Of a DNA stretch of 64,000 bases, positions 3,162 through 12,600 are shown piece by piece; position 1 is the first letter of the stretch, and the number at the start of each line of letters is the position of its first letter. The notes under the pieces are model-generated. The model worked only from the letters and a program-made list of their open reading frames with translations, was not told the DNA's origin and ran no database searches. The DNA is taken from positions 62,001-126,000 of the forward strand of contig NZ_KB899493.1 in NCBI RefSeq assembly GCF_000378245.1. The letters are read 5' to 3'. The DNA is from Aromatoleum toluclasticum ATCC 700605 (lineage in GTDB: Bacteria; Pseudomonadota; Gammaproteobacteria; Burkholderiales; Rhodocyclaceae). A program made the translations under genes and the position numbers.

Positions 3162-3320
3162 GCTCGGCGCGGGGGGCGGACGCGCTGGCGCCCGCCTGTT
3201 CCCCCGCCCCGTCCGCCGGGACGCCCACCCCGCGGACCTTCACGAATTCTTCACCATGCCTTGAGCGCTGCTTGACGGCCGGGCTGCAAGCATCCCTGCT
3301 TGCCGCATCCGGAGCCCTGC

Positions 3321-5201
3321 ATGTCCGCCCTGCCCTCGTCCCGCACGCTCAACGCCTACTTCCTGATCACGTGGCTGGTGGCGCTCGTGCAGTTGTTCTC
3401 GCAGCAGGGCGCGAGCGACTACGTGAGCCCGGCGGTTAGCGGCTGGACCCTCGCGGCGACACTCTCGTACGCGTTCATGTACCTGCTGCCGAGCGTCGCG
3501 ATCGGACATGGACTGCGTTGGCTGTTGGCAGGCCGCAAGGCGTTTCGGCGCGGACCCGCTATCCTCGCGGCAGCGGCGATCGTGCTGACGGGTTTCACGC
3601 AGGTACTGCTATTCGCGGACTGCGTGATACACAAGATGTACGGGTTCCACGTCAACGGTTTCGTCGTGAACCTGGTGCTTTCGGGAGGCGGTATCGCCTC
3701 GCTCGGCGTCAGCCACAGCGCCGAGATGACGGCCGGCGCGATCGCCCTCGCACTGGTCGCGCTGCAGGCTGCGGCCTGGGTATGGGTGCTGCGGCGGGGC
3801 GCCGGCGATGGTGCCTGGAGGCTGCGCGGTGCATGGGCGATGGCACTGTTCCTGGCGCTGACCACAGGCGAGCGCATCGCTTACGCCTACAGCGAGATGT
3901 CGAACTACCAGCCCATCCTGTTCGCCAGCGAGCATTTCCCGCTTTATCAGCCGCTGACCTTCCGCAACTTCGCGCAGAAACTGGGTTTCAAGGTTGATCA
4001 GGCAACCGCGCGCAGCCTGCACGAACTGGAAGGTAGCCTGAGCTACCCCCAGCGGCCGCTGCGCGTGACGCCGCCGGACAAGCCGATGAACATCGTCTGG
4101 CTGGTCGCGGAGTCGCTGCGCTTCGACATGCTCGACCCGAAGATCATGCCGAACCTGTGGGGGCTCTCGAACGATGCCGTACGTCTGGAAAAGCACTTCA
4201 GCGGTAGCAACACGACGCAGATGGGCGTGTTCTCGATGTTCTACGGCCTGTACGGAAATTACTGGTTCCCGATGCTGGCCGCCCGCCAAGCGCCGGTGCT
4301 GATGGAGGTGCTGCGGCAGCAGAACTACCAGTTCAGCCTGAACACGAGCCAGCGCTTTACCTACCCGGCCTTCGACAAGACGGTGTTCGCCGGCATGCGG
4401 ACGGAGGATCTGCATTCGCTGGAAGGCGGGGCGCCGGCCTGGCGGCGCGACGCGCGCAATATCGACGTGCTGATCGATTTCATCGACCGGCGCGATCCCG
4501 CCCGCCCCTTCATGACCTACATGTTTTTCGAGTCGACGCACGCGAACTACGACTATCCGCCGGAGGCCGAGATCTTCACCCCGGTCCTGCAGGAATTCAA
4601 CTACCGGACGGGAGACTTCCGGGCGCAGATCGGGCAGATCAAGAATCGCTACATCAACGCCGCACATCACGTGGACAGCCAGATCGGACGCATGATCGAC
4701 CACCTGAAGAAGCGCGGCCTACTCGACAACACCATCGTGATCGTGCTCGGAGACCATGGCGAGGAATTCATGGAGCGCAGCCGCTGGGGCCATGGCGCGG
4801 AGTTCAACCGTTTCCAGACGAGCACGCCGGGCGTAATTCACGTGCCGGGCCGTGCGCCGCGCGTCGTGACCGGCATCAGCAGCCACCTCGACATTCCCGC
4901 AACTCTGATGCCGCTGCTGGGAGTGCAGAATCCCCCGGAGGATTACTCGCTGGGCCACGATCTGCTCGCTCCGGATTTTCACCGCGAATACGCCGTCGCC
5001 GCCGACTGGAACCGTCTCGCCTACATCGGCGACGACTTCAGGGTGACCTTCCCGGTCAATGCGATCGGCGCCGCACACAACCAGGCGAGCGACGGCGACG
5101 ATCGCCCCCTCGCCCACGCGGACGAGGCAATCGCATCGATCCGCTCGGCGATGATGGAGATCATGGCGAATCTGGCGCGATTCAGCCGACACCGCGGATA
5201 A
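3321..5201 (+). CDS. YejM/PbgA-like inner-membrane protein: DUF3413 membrane domain plus sulfatase-fold periplasmic domain
   Basis: 626 residues. The first ~190 form several membrane helices of the DUF3413 type, and residues from about 254 form an alkaline-phosphatase/sulfatase fold beginning NIVWLVAESLRFDML. SGSNTTQMG (294-302) aligns by eye with the same block in E. coli YejM/PbgA/LapC, which controls LPS synthesis through LapB/FtsH. Unlike my recollection of E. coli YejM, this protein keeps a metal-site-like GDHGEEF (477-483) and WGH (489-491), so it may be catalytic. The ATG at 3321 is preceded by GGAG six bases upstream; a TTG at 3300 is in frame but lacks a ribosome site. A response regulator gene follows 47 nt later. 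Confidence 0.82.
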   Translation: MSALPSSRTLNAYFLITWLVALVQLFSQQGASDYVSPAVSGWTLAATLSYAFMYLLPSVAIGHGLRWLLAGRKAFRRGPAILAAAAIVLTGFTQVLLFADCVIHKMYGFHVNGFVVNLVLSGGGIASLGVSHSAEMTAGAIALALVALQAAAWVWVLRRGAGDGAWRLRGAWAMALFLALTTGERIAYAYSEMSNYQPILFASEHFPLYQPLTFRNFAQKLGFKVDQATARSLHELEGSLSYPQRPLRVTPPDKPMNIVWLVAESLRFDMLDPKIMPNLWGLSNDAVRLEKHFSGSNTTQMGVFSMFYGLYGNYWFPMLAARQAPVLMEVLRQQNYQFSLNTSQRFTYPAFDKTVFAGMRTEDLHSLEGGAPAWRRDARNIDVLIDFIDRRDPARPFMTYMFFESTHANYDYPPEAEIFTPVLQEFNYRTGDFRAQIGQIKNRYINAAHHVDSQIGRMIDHLKKRGLLDNTIVIVLGDHGEEFMERSRWGHGAEFNRFQTSTPGVIHVPGRAPRVVTGISSHLDIPATLMPLLGVQNPPEDYSLGHDLLAPDFHREYAVAADWNRLAYIGDDFRVTFPVNAIGAAHNQASDGDDRPLAHADEAIASIRSAMMEIMANLARFSRHRG

Positions 5202-5248
5202 TGGCGGGGCGCGACGCTCCCCGCGTCCGACTGGAGACTGGAATCCGC

Positions 5249-5920
5249 ATGCGGCTACTGTTGGTGGAAGACAACCGCGACATTCTTGCGAATCTCGCGG
5301 ATTACCTGGCCTTGAAGGGCTACGAGGTCGACTGCGCACAGGATGGGCTGACCGGCCTGCATCTCGCCGCGACCCAGCAGTACGACCTGATCGTGCTCGA
5401 CGTGATGCTGCCGGGCATGGACGGCTTCACGCTGTGCCAGCGTCTGCGCGACAGCGAGCGCAGCCACGTGCCCGTGATCATGCTGACCGCGCGCGACACG
5501 CTCGACGACCGGCTGCAGGGCTTCCGCACCGGTGCGGACGACTATCTGACCAAGCCCTTCGCCCTTTCCGAGCTAGCGGCCCGCATCGCGGCCGTGCTCA
5601 AGCGTACACGGGGTGGCGGCCGACGCATACTCAGCGTCGCGGACCTGCAGTACGACCTCGACACACTCGCCGTCACACGCGCCGGGCAAACCCTGCACGT
5701 CGGCCCGATCGGCCTGAAGCTGCTCGAACTGCTGATGCAGAAGAGCCCCAGCGTGGTCCGGCGCGAGGCCCTCGAGAGCGCCCTTTGGGGCGATTCGCCC
5801 CCCGACAGCGACAGCCTGCGCAGTCACATCCACACGCTGCGACAACAGATAGACAAGCCCTTCGACTCCCCGCTGCTGCACACCGTACACGGAGTCGGCT
5901 ACCGGCTCGCCGCAGCCTAG
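5249..5920 (+). CDS. OmpR-family response regulator
   Basis: 223 residues with a receiver domain (1 to ~115) and a C-terminal winged-helix DNA-binding domain. The acidic pair Glu7/Asp8, phospho-acceptor Asp51 (IVLDVMLPGMDG), Thr80 and Lys102 are all present. The effector domain ends HTVHGVGYRLAAA, as in the OmpR/PhoB class. The ATG at 5249 is preceded by a purine-rich CTGGAGACTGGAA. The open frame reaches 5201 but the extra residues do not belong to the receiver fold. The kinase gene starts 65 nt downstream, and the upstream YejM-like gene lies 47 nt away, so the three genes probably form one transcript. Confidence 0.93.
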   Translation: MRLLLVEDNRDILANLADYLALKGYEVDCAQDGLTGLHLAATQQYDLIVLDVMLPGMDGFTLCQRLRDSERSHVPVIMLTARDTLDDRLQGFRTGADDYLTKPFALSELAARIAAVLKRTRGGGRRILSVADLQYDLDTLAVTRAGQTLHVGPIGLKLLELLMQKSPSVVRREALESALWGDSPPDSDSLRSHIHTLRQQIDKPFDSPLLHTVHGVGYRLAAA

Positions 5921-5985
5921 GATGAAGCGTTCCGGCGGAACCCCGTGCGCATTTGCGCGAACGGCGGCACGACAACAGGGCTGAC

Positions 5986-7254
5986 ATGGCGGCACCGCAA
6001 AGTCTCGCGTCGCGCATCGTCGCGGCATTCGTCCTGATGGCCGCGTTTGTCGCGGGCGTCTTCGCGCTGATCATCGTCGAAGCGATCAACACGGTTGAAA
6101 CACGCCTCGTCACCGATGCGCTGAACCACCAGCTCGATTTCATCATCGACGAATCGAACGAGGGGCGATTTCCGGCTCTCGGCCCAGGTCTGGACCTTTA
6201 TGTCGCCCCCATCGGCGCGAGTGCGTCCCTGCCGGCGTGGCTCGCACCGCTGCAGGAAGGCCTGCATGAAACCGAGAACGACGACGAGGCCTTTCACGTG
6301 CTGGTGCGCGACCGGGAGGGCAAGCGCTATGTCCTCGTACTCGACCAGGAGGACTTCGAGCGACGCGAGACCATGCTGTTCGTCGCGGTCACCGCGGGAG
6401 TGGTGATTTCCATCCTCGCCGCGGCCCTGCTCGGGCGGGCACTCGCGCGCACCGTGATCTCGCCGGTCGTGCGCCTGTCGGGACAGGTACAGCACCGCGA
6501 CCAGTTGCTGCCGCTCGCACCGCCACTCGCCGCCGAATACGCGGAGGACGAAGTCGGCAAGCTGGCCGCGGCTTTCGACGAGACGCTCGGAAGCCTGCGC
6601 GAGGCGCTGGAACGCGAACAGCTCTTCACCAGCGACGTGAGCCACGAGTTGCGCACGCCGCTGATGGTGATCGCCAGTTCCTGCGAGTTGCTCGAGGCGC
6701 AGGAACTGGCGCCGCAGCAGCTCGCACAGATCAACCGCATCGGCCGCGCCTGCGCCGAGATGCAGGAGCTGGTGGAGACTTTCCTGAGCCTCGCTCGCGT
6801 GCCGCAGGAGCGCGGCACGAAGCTCGCGGGCGCGTCGCTCGCCGCGGTGGCGACCGAACAGTTGCACCGCTGGCAACCCGAGGCAGCGCAGCGTGGCCTC
6901 GCACTCGATCTCGTCAGCGAAAGCGTGGACGATGGCGTCTATCCGGCACCCTTGTTGCGTGCGGTGCTGACAAACCTCGTGCGCAACGCCATCCACTACA
7001 CCGATGAAGGCTTCGTGCGCTTGGTGCTGCGCGATGGCGGTTTTTCGGTGCTGGATTCCGGCGCGGGGATTCCGGAGGCGGAGCGCGCGCTGGTGTTCCG
7101 GCCGTTCGCCCGCGGCGGCAGTACGCGCGGCGACGGCATCGGCATCGGGCTGTCGCTGGTACAACGCATCTGCGACCGGCAGGGATGGCAGATCAGCCTG
7201 TCCCCCCGCGAAGGCTCCGGCTGCGAGTTCCGGGTCCAGCTGCGCGCCTCGTGA
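5986..7254 (+). CDS. Sensor histidine kinase, partner of the upstream regulator
   Basis: 422 residues. Membrane segments at about 10-32 and 131-150 flank a periplasmic sensor of about 95 residues rich in acidic residues (HETENDDEAFHV). A HAMP-like linker leads to the H-box TSDVSHELRTPLMVI with phospho-acceptor His220. The catalytic domain has the N-box LTNLVRNAIHY, G1 box LDSGAGIP and G2 box GDGIGIGLSL. The start at 5986 follows AGGG and places the membrane segment properly; a TTG at 5953 is a weaker alternative. Ligand unknown. The link to the YejM-like gene suggests an envelope or lipid signal, which is inference only. Confidence 0.92.
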   Translation: MAAPQSLASRIVAAFVLMAAFVAGVFALIIVEAINTVETRLVTDALNHQLDFIIDESNEGRFPALGPGLDLYVAPIGASASLPAWLAPLQEGLHETENDDEAFHVLVRDREGKRYVLVLDQEDFERRETMLFVAVTAGVVISILAAALLGRALARTVISPVVRLSGQVQHRDQLLPLAPPLAAEYAEDEVGKLAAAFDETLGSLREALEREQLFTSDVSHELRTPLMVIASSCELLEAQELAPQQLAQINRIGRACAEMQELVETFLSLARVPQERGTKLAGASLAAVATEQLHRWQPEAAQRGLALDLVSESVDDGVYPAPLLRAVLTNLVRNAIHYTDEGFVRLVLRDGGFSVLDSGAGIPEAERALVFRPFARGGSTRGDGIGIGLSLVQRICDRQGWQISLSPREGSGCEFRVQLRAS

Positions 7255-8348: not shown

Positions 8349-9707
8349 TCAGGCGGCAGGCAGGATCAGCGAGGCGCGTAGGCCACCATCCGGCGCCTGC
8401 CCGAGCTCGATGCGGCCGCCATAGAGCTGGGCGAGGTCGCGCACGATGCCGAGACCGAGGCCGGAGCCCGGCACCTCCTCGTCGGCACGCGCGCCACGGG
8501 CGAACATCGCGTCGCGAGCATCTGCCGGAAGACCGGGACCGTCGTCGTCGATCACGATCTCGACCTCGCCGTCGCGTACGACGGCCGCAACACGGACCGC
8601 GTGTCGTGCCCACTTGCATGCGTTGTCGATGAGATTGCCGAGCATCTCCTGCAGGTCCTGCTCCTCGCCGCGGAACGCCGCATCGTCGGGCATCGCTTCG
8701 ATCGCGATCCGCAGATTGCGTTCCGCGTGCACGCGCTGCATCACGCGCACGAGCCCCTCGACAGCAGGGCGCAGCGCCGTGCGCAGCCCCGGCACCTGCG
8801 TCGCCGCCGCCGCACGTGCGCGTGCGAGGTGGTAGTCGACCTGCCGTTGCGCCGTTGCCACCTGATCGGTCACGAGACGCGCGAGCGCCCCCTCCTCGCG
8901 CATCGCGGCGTTGCCGAGCACGGCGAGCGGCGTCTTGATGGCGTGCGCGAGGTTGCCGGCCTGTGTCCGCGCGCGCGCAACCACTTCCGCATCGTGCGAG
9001 AGAACGGCATTGAGTTCGTCGACCAGCGGCTGCACCTCGTTCGGGAATGCCCCTTCGAGGCGGCGGCTGCGCCCGTCACGAATTTCAGCGAGCTGCGCGC
9101 TCAGGCGTTTCAAAGGGGCGAGGCCGATCGACACCTGCAGCATGACCGCGGTGACCAGGCCCGCCGCCAGCACGCCCATTGCGATGACGAGAAGACCGAC
9201 GAACTCGCGCACCGGGCTCGTCATGGCGCGCTCGTCGGCCGCGACGATCAGGCGCAGCGGCACGGCTGCGCCGTCGTCCAGCCTGACGATGCGCTCCATC
9301 ATCACCAGCCGCTCGCCATCGGGTCCGGAAACGGCGTGCACATGCACTTCACCGTCCCCGGGGCCGTCGGAAGGCACGTCGAGCGTGGTGTCCCATAACG
9401 AGCGGGACCGCAACACGCCCCGCACCGCGTCGCCCCCCTCACGATCGACCTGCCAGTAGAGTCCGGACAGGGGCTTGCGCAGGCGCGGGTCGCTGAGTTC
9501 GGCACGCAGCCGCGGGATGGCGTCGGCACCGAATTCGACGTTCGCGGTGAGCTGGTCGAGGTGGATGCGCAGTTCCGCCTCGAATCGCTCCGTGACGTGT
9601 TCGCGAAACAGGTCGGCCAGTACGAAGCCGGTCGCAGTCAGCGCGGCCAGGATCCACACCAGGCTGCCGGCCAGCAGCCGCGCACGCAGCGAGCCCTGCG
9701 CGCTCAT
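8349..9707 (-). CDS. Sensor histidine kinase, PhoQ/QseC-like
   Basis: 452 residues. Membrane helices at about 10-32 and 168-192 enclose a periplasmic domain of about 135 residues. The H-box GNLAHAIKTPLAVLGN carries His255 and has the K-T-P form seen in PhoQ-type kinases. The catalytic domain shows GNLIDNACKWA (N-box), IDDDGPGLP (G1) and GSGLGLGIV (G2). The start at 9707 overlaps the stop of the regulator gene as ATGA, indicating translational coupling; an in-frame ATG at 9716 is the alternative. It is cotranscribed with the regulator and the PepSY gene. A divergent cytochrome operon suggests a redox or gas signal, which is inference. Confidence 0.93.
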   Translation of the reverse strand: MSAQGSLRARLLAGSLVWILAALTATGFVLADLFREHVTERFEAELRIHLDQLTANVEFGADAIPRLRAELSDPRLRKPLSGLYWQVDREGGDAVRGVLRSRSLWDTTLDVPSDGPGDGEVHVHAVSGPDGERLVMMERIVRLDDGAAVPLRLIVAADERAMTSPVREFVGLLVIAMGVLAAGLVTAVMLQVSIGLAPLKRLSAQLAEIRDGRSRRLEGAFPNEVQPLVDELNAVLSHDAEVVARARTQAGNLAHAIKTPLAVLGNAAMREEGALARLVTDQVATAQRQVDYHLARARAAAATQVPGLRTALRPAVEGLVRVMQRVHAERNLRIAIEAMPDDAAFRGEEQDLQEMLGNLIDNACKWARHAVRVAAVVRDGEVEIVIDDDGPGLPADARDAMFARGARADEEVPGSGLGLGIVRDLAQLYGGRIELGQAPDGGLRASLILPAA

Positions 9708-10366
9708 TCGGGACATGCGAGGCGATACCCCAGGCCGCGCACCGTTTCGATCAGCCCCGCGGGCAGCTTCTTGCGCAGGCGTCCGATGAAGACTTCGATC
9801 GTATTCGAATCGCGCTCGAAATCCTGTGCGTAGATATGCTCGGTGAGTTCGGCGCGCGAGACGACCTGCCCCTTGCGGTGCATCAGGTAGCTCAGCACGC
9901 GCAGTTCGTGGCTCGTCAGCGTCACGGCCTGCCCGTCGATCGTGACGCGACCACCGCGGGTGTCGAGCAGCACAGGTCCGCATGCGAGCTCGGCGCTCGC
10001 GTGCCCGGCGCTGCGGCGGATCAGCGCCCGCACGCGCGCGAGCAGCTCTTCCATATGGAAGGGTTTGGTGAGGTAGTCGTCGGCCCCGGCGTCGATCCCG
10101 GCGACCTTCTCATGCCAGTTGTCGCGCGCGGTGAGGATCAGCACCGGCATCGTCCGTCCGGCAGCCCGCCACTTCTTCAGCACGGTGAGCCCGTCCATCA
10201 GCGGCAGTCCGAGATCCAGCACCACCGCATCGAGCGATTCGACCTCGCCGACGAAATACGCGTCGCGGCCATTGACCGCGTTATCAACCGCGTAGCCGGC
10301 CTCGCGCAGCGCCTGCGACAGCTGTGCCACCAGCGTCGGCTCGTCCTCCACGACCAGGATGTGCAT
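9704..10366 (-). CDS. OmpR-family response regulator, PhoP/QseB-like
   Basis: 220 residues. Receiver domain with Glu7/Asp8, phospho-acceptor Asp51 (VVLDLGLPLMDGL), Thr79 and Lys101, then a winged-helix effector domain with TSHELRVLSYLMHRKGQVVSR and the ending ETVRGLGYRLACPE. This arrangement matches the PhoP/QseB/PmrA subgroup. It starts one base inside the stop of the PepSY gene (TGATG) and ends within the start of the kinase gene (ATGA). Likely targets are the paired CTGAAY hexamers at 10787-10825, in the gap between its own operon and the cytochrome operon (inference). Confidence 0.94.
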   Translation of the reverse strand: MHILVVEDEPTLVAQLSQALREAGYAVDNAVNGRDAYFVGEVESLDAVVLDLGLPLMDGLTVLKKWRAAGRTMPVLILTARDNWHEKVAGIDAGADDYLTKPFHMEELLARVRALIRRSAGHASAELACGPVLLDTRGGRVTIDGQAVTLTSHELRVLSYLMHRKGQVVSRAELTEHIYAQDFERDSNTIEVFIGRLRKKLPAGLIETVRGLGYRLACPE

Positions 10367-10716
10367 CAGCGCCTCCCATTCCTATCCGCGCGCGACGCGG
10401 CGTCACGCGACTTCACCCCGATCACGGTGCCGTCGCGCGCATCGACATCCAGCCGCACGAGCGCCCCGCCGTCGCGCAACAGGCGGATCTCGTAGATCCA
10501 GCGGCCACGCTCACGCTCCAGTTCGACTTCCACGACTTTTCCCGGATAGTCGCGCCCCACCTTGTCGAGAATCGTGCGCAGCGGCAGCACCTCGCCGCGT
10601 TCGAGCGCGGCACGTGCACGATCGTGATCGTGCTCGTCGTCGCTGGCGGCGACCGGGCAGATCGAAAGACTTGCAAGAGCCATCACCGCGACTCCCGAAG
10701 CGAACAGCCTGCGCAT
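10366..10716 (-). CDS. Periplasmic PepSY-domain protein
   Basis: 116 residues. A signal peptide (MRRLFASGVAVMALASLSICPVAAS) is followed by an acidic His/Asp-rich stretch (DDEHDHDRAR) and one PepSY domain (EVLPLRTILDKV, then IYEIRLLRDGGALVRLDVDARDGTVIGVK). Small PepSY proteins are often encoded beside PhoPQ-like systems and may modulate the sensor or bind metal. The His/Asp cluster would suit metal binding (inference). I chose the ATG at 10716 because AGGAG lies 8 nt upstream; the ATG at 10722 leaves only 2 nt. It is the first gene of the leftward operon and its stop overlaps the regulator start. Confidence 0.85.
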   Translation of the reverse strand: MRRLFASGVAVMALASLSICPVAASDDEHDHDRARAALERGEVLPLRTILDKVGRDYPGKVVEVELERERGRWIYEIRLLRDGGALVRLDVDARDGTVIGVKSRDAASRADRNGRR

Positions 10717-10786
10717 CGACATCTCTCCTGAATGCACGCGCACCGTGCGCGTTGCGGACCTCGGAACCCGTTTTAGAGCCGCCGGC

Positions 10787-10825
10787 CTGAACGGCGGCTG
10801 AATGCTGCCTTCACCTTCCGTTCAG
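10787..10825. promoter_or_regulatory. Candidate operator: paired direct hexamers on both strands between divergent operons
   Basis: On the + strand CTGAAC (10787-10792), 5 nt, CTGAAT (10798-10803). On the - strand CTGAAC (10825-10820), 5 nt, GTGAAG (10814-10809). The outer parts form a perfect 10-bp inverted repeat, GCCTGAACGG (10785-10794) with CCGTTCAGGC (10818-10827). Hexamers repeated every 11 bp are the usual site architecture of PhoP/PmrA/QseB-type regulators. The site lies between the PepSY-regulator-kinase operon and the cytochrome operon, so it could control both. Confidence 0.5.
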
Positions 10826-10919
10826 GCTCGGCCGGGCAAAGTACGTTCCGAAGCCGGCGCAAACGCCCCGGCGGATCGATTCCATAGACATTGTTCCACC
10901 TTCAGCGACAGGAGCAAAC

Positions 10920-11333
10920 ATGAGAAACCACTCCCTGCAGATGCTGTTGGGCGCCGCCGCCCTGATCGCCAGCGGATTCGCCAGCGCGGAGACGCCCGCC
11001 GACTTCCTCGCCCGCTACGAAACCGAGGCACGCCAATCGTCGCCGAGCTTCAGCGCATCGGCCGAGCGCGGCGAGAAATTTTTCACGAACACCCACGGTG
11101 GCGAATGGAGCTGTTCGACCTGCCATACGAAGAATCCCACCGTGCGCGGCAAGCACGCCAGCACCGGCAAGGCGATCGAGCCGATGGCGCCCGGAGCCAA
11201 TCCGGAACGCTTCGCGAGCACGCGCTCGGTCGAGAAATGGTTTGGCCGCAACTGCAAGGACGTGCTGGGCCGCACCTGCACGCCCGGCGAAAAAGCCGAC
11301 GTCGTCGCCTGGCTGATGATTTCCCCCCGCTGA
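10920..11333 (+). CDS. SHP-type monoheme cytochrome c (DUF1924)
   Basis: 137 residues with a signal peptide (cleavage near ASA-ET, residue 23) for the periplasm. One heme site, CSTCH (Cys65, Cys68, His69). The C-terminal part FGRNCKDVLGRTCTPGEKADVVAWL fits the sphaeroides heme protein (SHP) family, where an Asn serves as the distal heme ligand and a disulfide lies nearby; Asn111 and Cys112/Cys120 are the matching candidates here. SHP binds O2 and NO in the structurally studied family member. The start follows AGGAG with 6-nt spacing. The diheme cytochrome and cytochrome b genes follow, as in the described SHP-DHC-cytb clusters. Confidence 0.85.
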   Translation: MRNHSLQMLLGAAALIASGFASAETPADFLARYETEARQSSPSFSASAERGEKFFTNTHGGEWSCSTCHTKNPTVRGKHASTGKAIEPMAPGANPERFASTRSVEKWFGRNCKDVLGRTCTPGEKADVVAWLMISPR

Positions 11334-11353
11334 CCAGCAAGGAGCATGATGAA

Positions 11354-11866
11354 ATGAACGCACGCCTTCCCGCCCGCGCCCTGCGCACCCTCGCTCTTGC
11401 CCTGGCCACCGGCGCCGCCGCCACGGCCATGGCCGACGATGAAAACAAGCGGATGAACATCGATCACCCGGTCTATCGCAGCGAATGCGGCAGCTGCCAC
11501 ATCGCCTTCCCGCCCGCCCTGCTGGGCGCCAATTCGTGGCGCGCGATGATGGCCGGCCTCGACAAGCACTTTGGCTCGGACGCCAGCCTCGATGCCGAGA
11601 CGGCCGCCACAATAACGAAGTTCCTCGTGGCCAATGCGGGCCGCCGGGACACCACCGGCAGCGACGGCAACCCGCAGCTGCGCATCAGCGACACCCCCTG
11701 GTTCCGCAAGGAGCACCGCGACGGCCATGACGGCATCACACCGGGCGTCTTCCGCAGCGAAGCGGTCAAGAGCGCCGCCAACTGCGCCGCCTGCCACCGC
11801 GACGCGGGCCAGGGCGACTACAGCGAGCGCAATATCCGCATCCCCAAGAACGGAGCCCGATCATGA
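11354..11866 (+). CDS. Diheme cytochrome c (DHC), partner of SHP
   Basis: 170 residues with a signal peptide ending near residue 27 (TAMA-DD). Two heme motifs: CGSCH (Cys45, Cys48, His49) and CAACH (Cys144, Cys147, His148). The segment SECGSCHIAFPPALLGANSW is typical of the periplasmic DHC family that passes electrons to SHP. The ATG at 11354 has AAGGAG nine bases upstream; an ATG at 11346 in another frame stops at once. Its stop overlaps the cytochrome b start by four bases (ATGA), so the pair is probably translationally coupled. Confidence 0.88.
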   Translation: MNARLPARALRTLALALATGAAATAMADDENKRMNIDHPVYRSECGSCHIAFPPALLGANSWRAMMAGLDKHFGSDASLDAETAATITKFLVANAGRRDTTGSDGNPQLRISDTPWFRKEHRDGHDGITPGVFRSEAVKSAANCAACHRDAGQGDYSERNIRIPKNGARS

Positions 11867-12600
11867 GCACCAGCCTCGCTTCCGCCCCCGCCGGCGGCCG
11901 CACGTCGCAGACCGCCGACGCTGCTGCCACGGTGCGCGTCTGGGACGTCCCGACGCGCGTCTTCCACTGGAGCCTCGCGCTATGTTTCGCCGGCGCGTGG
12001 CTCACGTCCGACTCCGAACGGCTGCGCGACCTGCACGTAATGCTCGGCTACACCTTCGCCGGCCTCATCGTGTTCCGCGTGCTGTGGGGACTCGTCGGCA
12101 CGCGCTACGCGCGCTTCGCGAGCTTCCTCTTCTCGCCGCGTGAACTCTCGTCCTATTTGAAATCGCTCATCGCCCGCAAGCCCGAGCACCATCCGGGCCA
12201 CAATCCCGCCGGCGCGATCGCGATCTTCGCGATGCTGGGCCTGGGCGCCCTGATCGTACTGAGCGGCTTCGCGGTCTATCAGGACATCGGCGGCGAATGG
12301 CTGGAGGAGCTCCACGAAGTGGTCGCCAGCACCATGCTCGCCGTCGTCTTCGTGCACATCGCCGGGGTCGTCGTCAGCAGCCTGATGCACCGCGAGAACC
12401 TCGTACGCGCGATGGTCACGGGCAGCAAGCTCGGCGCCCCGTCCGACGGCATCCGCCACACGCACCGGATCGTCGGCGCCGCACTCCTCGTCGCGGTCCT
12501 CGGCTTCTGGTGGGCCTACCAGAGCGGCGCGGCCGACGCATGGCTGCCGCAACCGGCCGCGGCTGCCGGCGAACGGTCAGACCGGCACCACGACGACTAG
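11863..12600 (+). CDS. Cytochrome b561-type membrane protein
   Basis: 245 residues with four main hydrophobic helices plus a C-terminal one, as in Ni/Fe-hydrogenase-type or b561 cytochrome b. Candidate heme-ligand histidines lie in TRVFHWSLAL (His35), LRDLHVMLGY, LEELHEVVAS and VVFVHIAGVV. It is probably the quinol-side electron donor to the DHC/SHP pair: quinol, cytochrome b, diheme c, SHP (inference from the operon). A C-terminal helix (VGAALLVAVLGFWWAYQ) and a His/Asp tail follow. A terminator lies at 12625-12659. Confidence 0.87.
   Translation: MSTSLASAPAGGRTSQTADAAATVRVWDVPTRVFHWSLALCFAGAWLTSDSERLRDLHVMLGYTFAGLIVFRVLWGLVGTRYARFASFLFSPRELSSYLKSLIARKPEHHPGHNPAGAIAIFAMLGLGALIVLSGFAVYQDIGGEWLEELHEVVASTMLAVVFVHIAGVVVSSLMHRENLVRAMVTGSKLGAPSDGIRHTHRIVGAALLVAVLGFWWAYQSGAADAWLPQPAAAAGERSDRHHDD

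Follow-up and report, generated by a model that had tools for sequence, protein, structure and literature searches.

In a 64,000-nucleotide stretch of the Aromatoleum toluclasticum ATCC 700605 genome (contig NZ_KB899493.1, positions 62,001 to 126,000 of the forward strand; hereafter the window), we detected a 39-bp element (10787-10825 of the window) in the gap between two divergent operons. The first encodes a small PepSY protein, an OmpR-family response regulator and a sensor histidine kinase of the SK1 type, and the second encodes the sphaeroides heme protein (SHP), a soluble diheme cytochrome c (DHC) and a cytochrome b561-type membrane cytochrome. The element is very probably the operator of the adjoining regulator, which in its phosphorylated state would activate both promoters from their -35 positions. 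An initial annotation of this DNA had proposed that the regulator controls both operons through a shared operator, and the comparative evidence (conservation in relatives, spacing to the predicted -10 hexamers and tracking of the regulator class) strongly supports this idea.

On the plus strand the element reads TGAA, TGAA, TTCA and TTCA, starting at 10788, 10799, 10810 and 10821, and thus holds four half-sites in a single 11-bp phase, two per direction. The pattern is TGAAC-N6-TGAAT followed by TTCAC-N6-TTCAG, with the two pairs back to back. The paired hexamers and the perfect 10-bp inverted repeat are present in the sequence exactly as first described, with arms GCCTGAACGG (10785-10794) and CCGTTCAGGC (10818-10827); wider arms of 21 nt each are 81% complementary. 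The paired word is unremarkable in the window, with 2 matches at up to one mismatch versus 1.61 expected; we dropped this within-chance count as evidence and therefore compared relatives. Rarity in this genome proves nothing, because the exact pair occurs four times versus three times for a reversed control pattern.

In an order-level survey, a match to the SHP family was identified in 107 of 399 genomes. We took 100 SHP loci (94 strong ones outside the window and six weaker ones, in stretches of 3.9 to 10.3 kb), and five of them (L057, L107, L113, L116 and L120) encode the divergent SK1-type PepSY-regulator-kinase set. A lack of the hexamers in relatives with the same gene pair, named at the outset as the finding that would speak against a shared operator, was looked for here and not seen: with up to one mismatch in 12 positions, the element is present in all five SK1-linked SHP loci versus one of the 95 others (L117).

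The geometry and conservation of the element were established on a larger scale from the kinases. Searching the genome collection with the kinase alignment gave at least 585 relatives, of which the best 80 were used (L155-L234); with the window and the five SK1-linked SHP loci they form a set of 86 kinases. These yielded 85 upstream regions of up to 1 kb (L209 gave no regulator), in which all 5-mers repeated at steps of 7 to 16 bp were counted, with no target word supplied. The top word was TGAAC at 11 bp, in 65 of the 85 regions. The next words, CTGAA (28), GAACG (23) and ATGAA (20), belong to this motif; the highest count of any unrelated word was 19, and the top-word count in ten Markov-1 resamples was at most 15. 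All four half-sites are exact at a step of 11 bp in 65/85 regions, versus 0.0 expected from the resamples, and in 0/85 at each of the steps 7-10 and 12-16.

Among the 84 rows that could be aligned (L193 was too short), 75 contain an exact TGAA pair and 76 contain the operator, counted as a pair matching at least 8 of 10 positions together with an exact third half-site. Near duplicates occur among the rows (L107 and L170, for instance, seem to be one stretch); removal of rows at least 80% alike reduced the 76 operator rows to 66, and all four half-sites are exact in 55 of these. With the first T of the operator as the reference point, the strongest columns of the 66 rows outside the half-sites are TT.TA (-17 to -13; TA.AA on the opposite strand) and CA.A.T (+49 to +54); the spacers are only weakly conserved.

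We also inspected a distant set of 28 loci, the best matches from the 169 genomes with a match among 369. At least 13 of 16 half-site positions are reached in nine of 13 distant SK1-like loci with the words TGAA, TGAC or TTAA, which were picked after a first look, the distant groups being split by search E-value. By eye only, L247 and L248 show TAAC repeats. The perfect 10-bp arms and the within-chance count of the paired word in a single window could still suggest a chance palindrome or an RNA hairpin. Such an origin is so improbable as to be practically negligible, given four exact half-sites at one spacing in most regions, conservation that is strong at the half-sites and the -10-like hexamers and weak in the spacers, and several distant relatives that keep the geometry with other words.

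Both -10-like hexamers begin 12 nt past the nearest half-site in the 66 dereplicated rows. Judging from these columns, the half-sites would coincide in part with the -35 positions, a predicted layout in which an activator stands in for the -35 element. A canonical sigma-70 promoter scan of the gap found none, but as 0.0 were also expected in shuffles this result is uninformative. The overlap with the -35 positions would also suit a regulator that binds but represses, either with one phosphorylation state blocking both promoters or with mutually exclusive promoters; the predicted starts are about 86 bp apart, and from these positions two polymerases might be crowded. We regard repression as unlikely. 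BqsR of Pseudomonas aeruginosa, with identical pair geometry, is an activator on TTAAG-N6-TTAAG, the downstream pentamer overlapping the -35 element (PMC4682146; this and the other papers cited are drawn on in part). There is evidence of positive autoregulation in the DbfQRS system of Vibrio cholerae (PMC12714742), and SHP and regulator genes rise together in Allochromatium vinosum (PMC11267869). In the latter, on pyrite versus sulfide, the log2 changes were 7.10 for Alvin_0022 (DUF1924), 5.54 for Alvin_0023, 5.32 for Alvin_0024, 5.13 for Alvin_0021, 4.38 for Alvin_0020, 4.15 for the regulator (Alvin_0025), 3.51 for FieF (Alvin_0019), 3.24 for a peroxidase (Alvin_0018) and 2.18 for the kinase (Alvin_0026) (PMC11267869). 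Genes of the SHP cluster type (SHP, DHC, cytochrome b561, regulator and kinase) rise as a block in that organism; the published table labels Alvin_0022 only as DUF1924, and the link to SHP regulation is our own (PMC11267869).

The element is found upstream of the SK1-linked regulator whatever is encoded opposite: SHP and DHC with a ferric-reductase-like flavocytochrome (FRE), SHP and DHC with the cytochrome b561, FRE alone, or none of these. Sites persist at the genes where the SHP and sensor operons are apart: two four-site operators are present in each of L167 and L175, sites at both operons in L173 and L230, and sites at SHP only in L207. For the 95 SHP loci that lack a linked SK1, the unbiased count instead returned CTTAA/TTAAG at 11 bp (39/95). 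Loci that encode a different PmrA/QseB-like regulator (scoring at least 140 bits against that of the window; we chose the label QseB-like) contain the TTAA pair in 34 of 57 cases and the TGAA pair in none of the 57, versus 0/5 and 5/5, respectively, for loci with linked SK1. Where no regulator was found, the TTAA pair is present in 14/38 loci and the TGAA pair in 2/38, one of which (L122) looks like chance. CTTAA/TTAAG pairs at 11 bp are frequent in SHP loci with the other regulator and form a separate operator class on the same operon; L044, L048 and L123 are examples. L117, the other and clear case of a TGAA pair with no regulator found nearby, carries a hybrid upstream of SHP (TTAAC, TTAAC, TTCAG and TTCAG at 11 bp), and its genome (G055) encodes an SK1 kinase on another contig (6.9e-84).

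All regulators of the SK1 set (85/85) share VF at one position of the recognition helix, where the TGAC, TTAA and TAAC loci have L rather than F, a difference confounded by descent. In the other-regulator class the helix pattern could be matched in 17 of the 57 regulators (it failed for 40), and three of the 17 have the EVF residue. These three, together with the regulators of two distant loci with TGAA-type sites that are without the EVF residue (L242 and L244), are what one might expect if the element belonged to some other PmrA/QseB-like regulator in the cell and not to the adjoining one. Half-sites are also alike across this family, and other-regulator SHP loci use TTAA pairs at the same 11-bp step. 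We nevertheless consider a different regulator quite improbable: the element stands upstream of the SK1-linked regulator in 76/84 loci, including loci without SHP, the TGAA pair is absent from all 57 SHP loci with another PmrA/QseB-like regulator, and the helix residue follows the half-site word, descent permitting.

The SK1-linked regulator probably also controls PepSY/FRE operons to which it is unlinked, as suggested by sites at those operons. The four exact pairs in the A. toluclasticum genome lie upstream of SHP, inside an open reading frame (L002, set aside for that reason) and upstream of two PepSY/FRE operons. The latter are on other contigs, with no such regulator adjoining in the stretches read. 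They are copies of a PepSY_2 and ferric-reductase-like operon (L152, 8022, contig 8; L153, 11748, contig 32) whose FRE proteins are 92% identical and which have an identical 18-nt paired site upstream. Among relatives, a family survey of 121 genomes detected the kinase in 43 and an FRE match at 1e-60 in 52. Upstream regions were counted for 30 FRE loci plus the second A. toluclasticum copy. Where FRE is unlinked to SK1 in SK1-bearing genomes (on another contig or more than 30 kb off), the 11-bp pair is upstream in 6/6 loci; in L301 the pair faces away from FRE. For FRE loci linked to SK1, the pair occurs within the 1.5-kb flank in 20/22, and for genomes without SK1 in 1/3 (L296). In relatives, FRE is often encoded within the SHP operon (32 loci), where it takes the place of cytochrome b561 (19 loci); by our score thresholds both together occur in 0/86, and none of these genes were found in 21/86 loci, several of them on short contigs.

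Four further observations concern sites or PepSY genes elsewhere. In L327 (1501-1533; contig 10:155579 of the A. toluclasticum genome), a TTCA pair with a -10-like hexamer at the right step precedes a small PepSY_2 gene, a candidate member. The site at C10:158293 (L328), one of five from a genome scan for the pair with a -10 hexamer, precedes a gene for a secreted-looking protein that has no Pfam hit; the neighboring gene we take to be hemerythrin-like, and the site is ambiguous. The site in L137 lies between two genes, presumably amino-acid-oxidase-like and Lrp-type, respectively. An Azonexus metagenome-assembled genome has three consecutive PepSY matches between FRE and DHC (L190, 4242-5600).

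Several observations weigh against the element being a co-activating operator of SK1-linked regulators. Half-site 4 is degenerate in L057, L113 and L120. Eight of the 84 aligned regions are operator-negative; five of these have less than 1 kb of upstream sequence (L200, L216, L219, L225 and L226), and L173, L202 and L207 are negative despite the full 1 kb, with L173 keeping pairs at both genes, L207 an operator at SHP and L202 pairs only. Among 15 kinase loci at yet greater distance, none reaches 13 of 16 half-site positions (0/15); nine of these 15 have the RSRSLW motif, which makes them an imperfect negative control, and the element is thus not demonstrated for every kinase of the wider SK1-like kind. 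Two SK1-linked FRE loci (L304 and L320) have no pair within the 1.5-kb flank, and genome G858 (L296) has a full four-site operator upstream of FRE with no convincing SK1 found (45 bits), which also favors a different regulator. A genome scan for the pair with a -10 hexamer gave five sites versus three for the reversed control; we dropped this count as proof of a regulon and treat only the location of the sites as informative. Finally, A. vinosum is another organism, and many other genes also rose on pyrite (PMC11267869).

We propose that the element consists of two copies of a PmrA/BqsR-type binding site, each a pair of half-sites at an 11-bp step, arranged back to back in a common 11-bp phase, and that each copy serves one promoter from its -35 position, with 12 nt to the downstream -10 hexamer. 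The SK1 kinase would phosphorylate the regulator, and a dimer on each copy would recruit RNA polymerase, so that the PepSY-regulator-kinase operon (by positive feedback) and the SHP-DHC-cytochrome b operon would rise together; activation rather than repression is what we infer from the layout and the related systems. The small periplasmic PepSY protein probably binds the sensor domain and restrains the kinase, which would close a feedback loop. The output would be a periplasmic electron chain to the O2- and nitric oxide (NO)-binding SHP, fed with quinol electrons through cytochrome b561, a feed that FRE may replace in relatives.

On balance we incline, with some reservation, to a wider view in which SK1-type PepSY kinases control, by way of a single mirror-symmetric operator, a hitherto undescribed regulon made up of periplasmic heme and flavin reductase modules. 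Its four half-sites in one 11-bp phase would replace both -35 elements and co-activate sensor and output from a single nucleoprotein complex. The geometry (the 11-bp step and, in the TGAAC set, the 12 nt to the -10 hexamer) would stay fixed as the half-site word changes along with the regulator (TGAAC, TGACA, TTAA and, by eye, TAAC); SHP operons with the other PmrA/QseB-like regulator, having TTAA and not TGAA, would then belong to a natural series in which regulator and operator co-evolve on one target operon.

The genes, half-sites and predicted -10 hexamers are listed in Table 1. The kinase and regulator were at first described as PhoPQ-like. The best NCBIfam match of the kinase is PhoQ (159.5 bits of a cut-off of 497), and that of the regulator is PmrA (217.4 of 330 bits), with PhoP at 198.8 of 336 bits; as all NCBIfam equivalog models shown score below cut-off, orthology to PhoPQ or PmrA was ruled out. 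PDB relatives of the regulator include BasR/PmrA and CarR. The YWQ and RSxSLW motifs are present in 86/86 kinases, the YWQ peptide being among the patterns used to find most of them. The SHP heme site is CSTCH (alignment to PDB 1dw0), and the protein is of the Asn sixth heme ligand type, with KWFGRNC...TC aligned to the Rhodobacter sphaeroides protein (Trp84 and the following cystine matched). Closer inspection identified Trp and Asn in 54/55 SK1-linked SHPs (23 by regular expression and 32 by eye); L228 has Arg/Asp. A second response regulator and kinase pair is encoded at 5201-7254 (+), 1.1 kb from the SK1 kinase, and adjoins gene 3300-5201, which we take to encode a sulfatase-like membrane protein.

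Table 1. Genes, operator half-sites and predicted -10 hexamers of the divergent locus (positions in the window)
Feature	Position	Strand	Basis
Sensor histidine kinase, SK1 type	8349-9707	-	Pfam HATPase_c; SGLYWQ and RSRSLWD periplasmic motifs, H-box HAIKTPL
OmpR-family response regulator, PmrA/BqsR-like	9704-10366	-	Pfam Response_reg and Trans_reg_C; recognition helix DSNTIEVFIGRLRKKL
Small PepSY protein	10366-10722	-	Pfam PF03413 2.1e-11; N-terminal signal-like segment (by eye)
SHP, sphaeroides heme protein	10920-11333	+	PF09086/DUF1924 9.9e-37; PDB 1dw0 4.3e-27; CxxCH heme site
DHC, soluble diheme cytochrome c	11354-11866	+	PF09626; PDB 2fw5 3.2e-26
Cytochrome b561-type membrane cytochrome	11863-12600	+	PF01292
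Half-site 1, CTGAAC	10787-10792	+	Sequence and conserved columns
Half-site 2, CTGAAT	10798-10803	+	11 bp from half-site 1
Half-site 3, GTGAAG	10809-10814	-	TTCA 10810-10813 on +
Half-site 4, CTGAAC	10820-10825	-	TTCA 10821-10824 on +
Predicted -10 hexamer, PepSY-regulator-kinase promoter, 5'-TAAAAC-3'	10770-10775	-	12 nt from half-site 1; conserved TAnAA columns
Predicted -10 hexamer, SHP operon promoter, CAAAGT	10837-10842	+	12 nt from half-site 4; conserved CAnAnT columns

The locus had also been read as a gas- or redox-sensing electron-transfer module. The electron-transfer part fits the gene content; for gas sensing by the kinase we found no supporting evidence. BqsS has an Fe2+-binding ExxE site in a juxtamembrane periplasmic helix (PMC12666569). 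The window kinase has ERFE, and ExxE is present in only 4/86 SK1 kinases, the window included, which does not support Fe2+ sensing through ExxE as a family feature; iron left a V. cholerae DbfQRS reporter unchanged (PMC12714742). The sensor domain has no sequence relatives in PDB at E ≤ 0.1. Its AlphaFold2 model (predicted local distance difference test, pLDDT, 88.9) has no PDB match at E ≤ 0.001, and thus no signal can be read from the fold; the best structural matches of the model, all weak, were a Mycobacterium tuberculosis transcriptional regulator, a yeast longin domain, LOV/PAS domains and chemoreceptor ligand-binding domains, and the CzcS sensor ranked 19th. By analogy with the pyrite data and the metal pumps of the A. 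vinosum cluster, metal or redox stress is a plausible signal.

To our knowledge, no role proposed for SHP is settled. The roles proposed include those of an oxygenase and an NO-dioxygenase (PMC2909971). With a defined operator, the regulation of SHP would become directly testable, further regulon members (PepSY/ferric-reductase operons) can be predicted, and SHP would be linked to a class of PepSY-regulated kinases described in 2025. The exchange of FRE and cytochrome b561, which were never found together, suggests that a single terminal heme protein is served by either of two electron donors. With its SK1/TGAA and PmrA-QseB-like/TTAA versions, the operon would provide a clean case of a regulator and its operator changing partners.

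Among known systems, the SHP cluster with Orf1, a response regulator and SK1, including variants of the SK1 motifs SGVYWQ and RSRSLWD, was described by Meyer, Kyndt and Cusanovich in 2010, who already proposed a divergent promoter and coupling of both operons (PMC2909971). The window has the same gene set and SK1 motifs (SGLYWQ and RSRSLWD), with PepSY-regulator-kinase on the minus strand and SHP-DHC-cytochrome b on the plus strand, a divergent layout as in photosynthetic Rhodospirillaceae (PMC2909971). The operator, the ferric-reductase variant, the unlinked members and the operator swap are not described in the sections of that paper covered here (PMC2909971). The PepSY protein appears to correspond to Orf1 and to be DbfQ-like. 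In V. cholerae, the small periplasmic PepSY protein DbfQ binds the sensor domain of the kinase DbfS and turns it toward phosphatase activity (Nguyen and colleagues 2025, PMC12714742), a precedent by which the PepSY protein here probably tunes its kinase, as had been suggested initially. Both systems have a small PepSY gene upstream of the regulator and kinase genes, but the DbfQRS output is biofilm formation, metabolism and membrane stress, and the parts of the paper covered describe no operator and no SHP output (PMC12714742).

PmrA/BasR and QseB are sequence relatives of the regulator and differ in the half-site word and mostly in the recognition helix. PmrA and QseB bind paired hexamers 11 bp apart. 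BqsRS/CarRS resembles the window in its paired pentamers with a 6-bp spacer, i.e., an 11-bp step, and up to five of its pentamers can cluster in a single step (PMC4682146, PMC12666569); the PepSY genes PA2658 and PA2659 are upstream of it (PMC12714742). The paired geometry of BqsR is shared, whereas its word is not (TTAAG versus TTCAG/CTGAA and TTCAC in the window), and a back-to-back operator common to two promoters is not described in the parts of these papers covered (PMC4682146, PMC12666569). Among the open-access titles and abstracts listed, excluding earlier BqsR papers, none treats an operator recognized by SHP regulators of the SK1 or DbfR type. The gene cluster has been known since 2010; neither the wider regulon nor the operator swap appears in the published accounts that we found.

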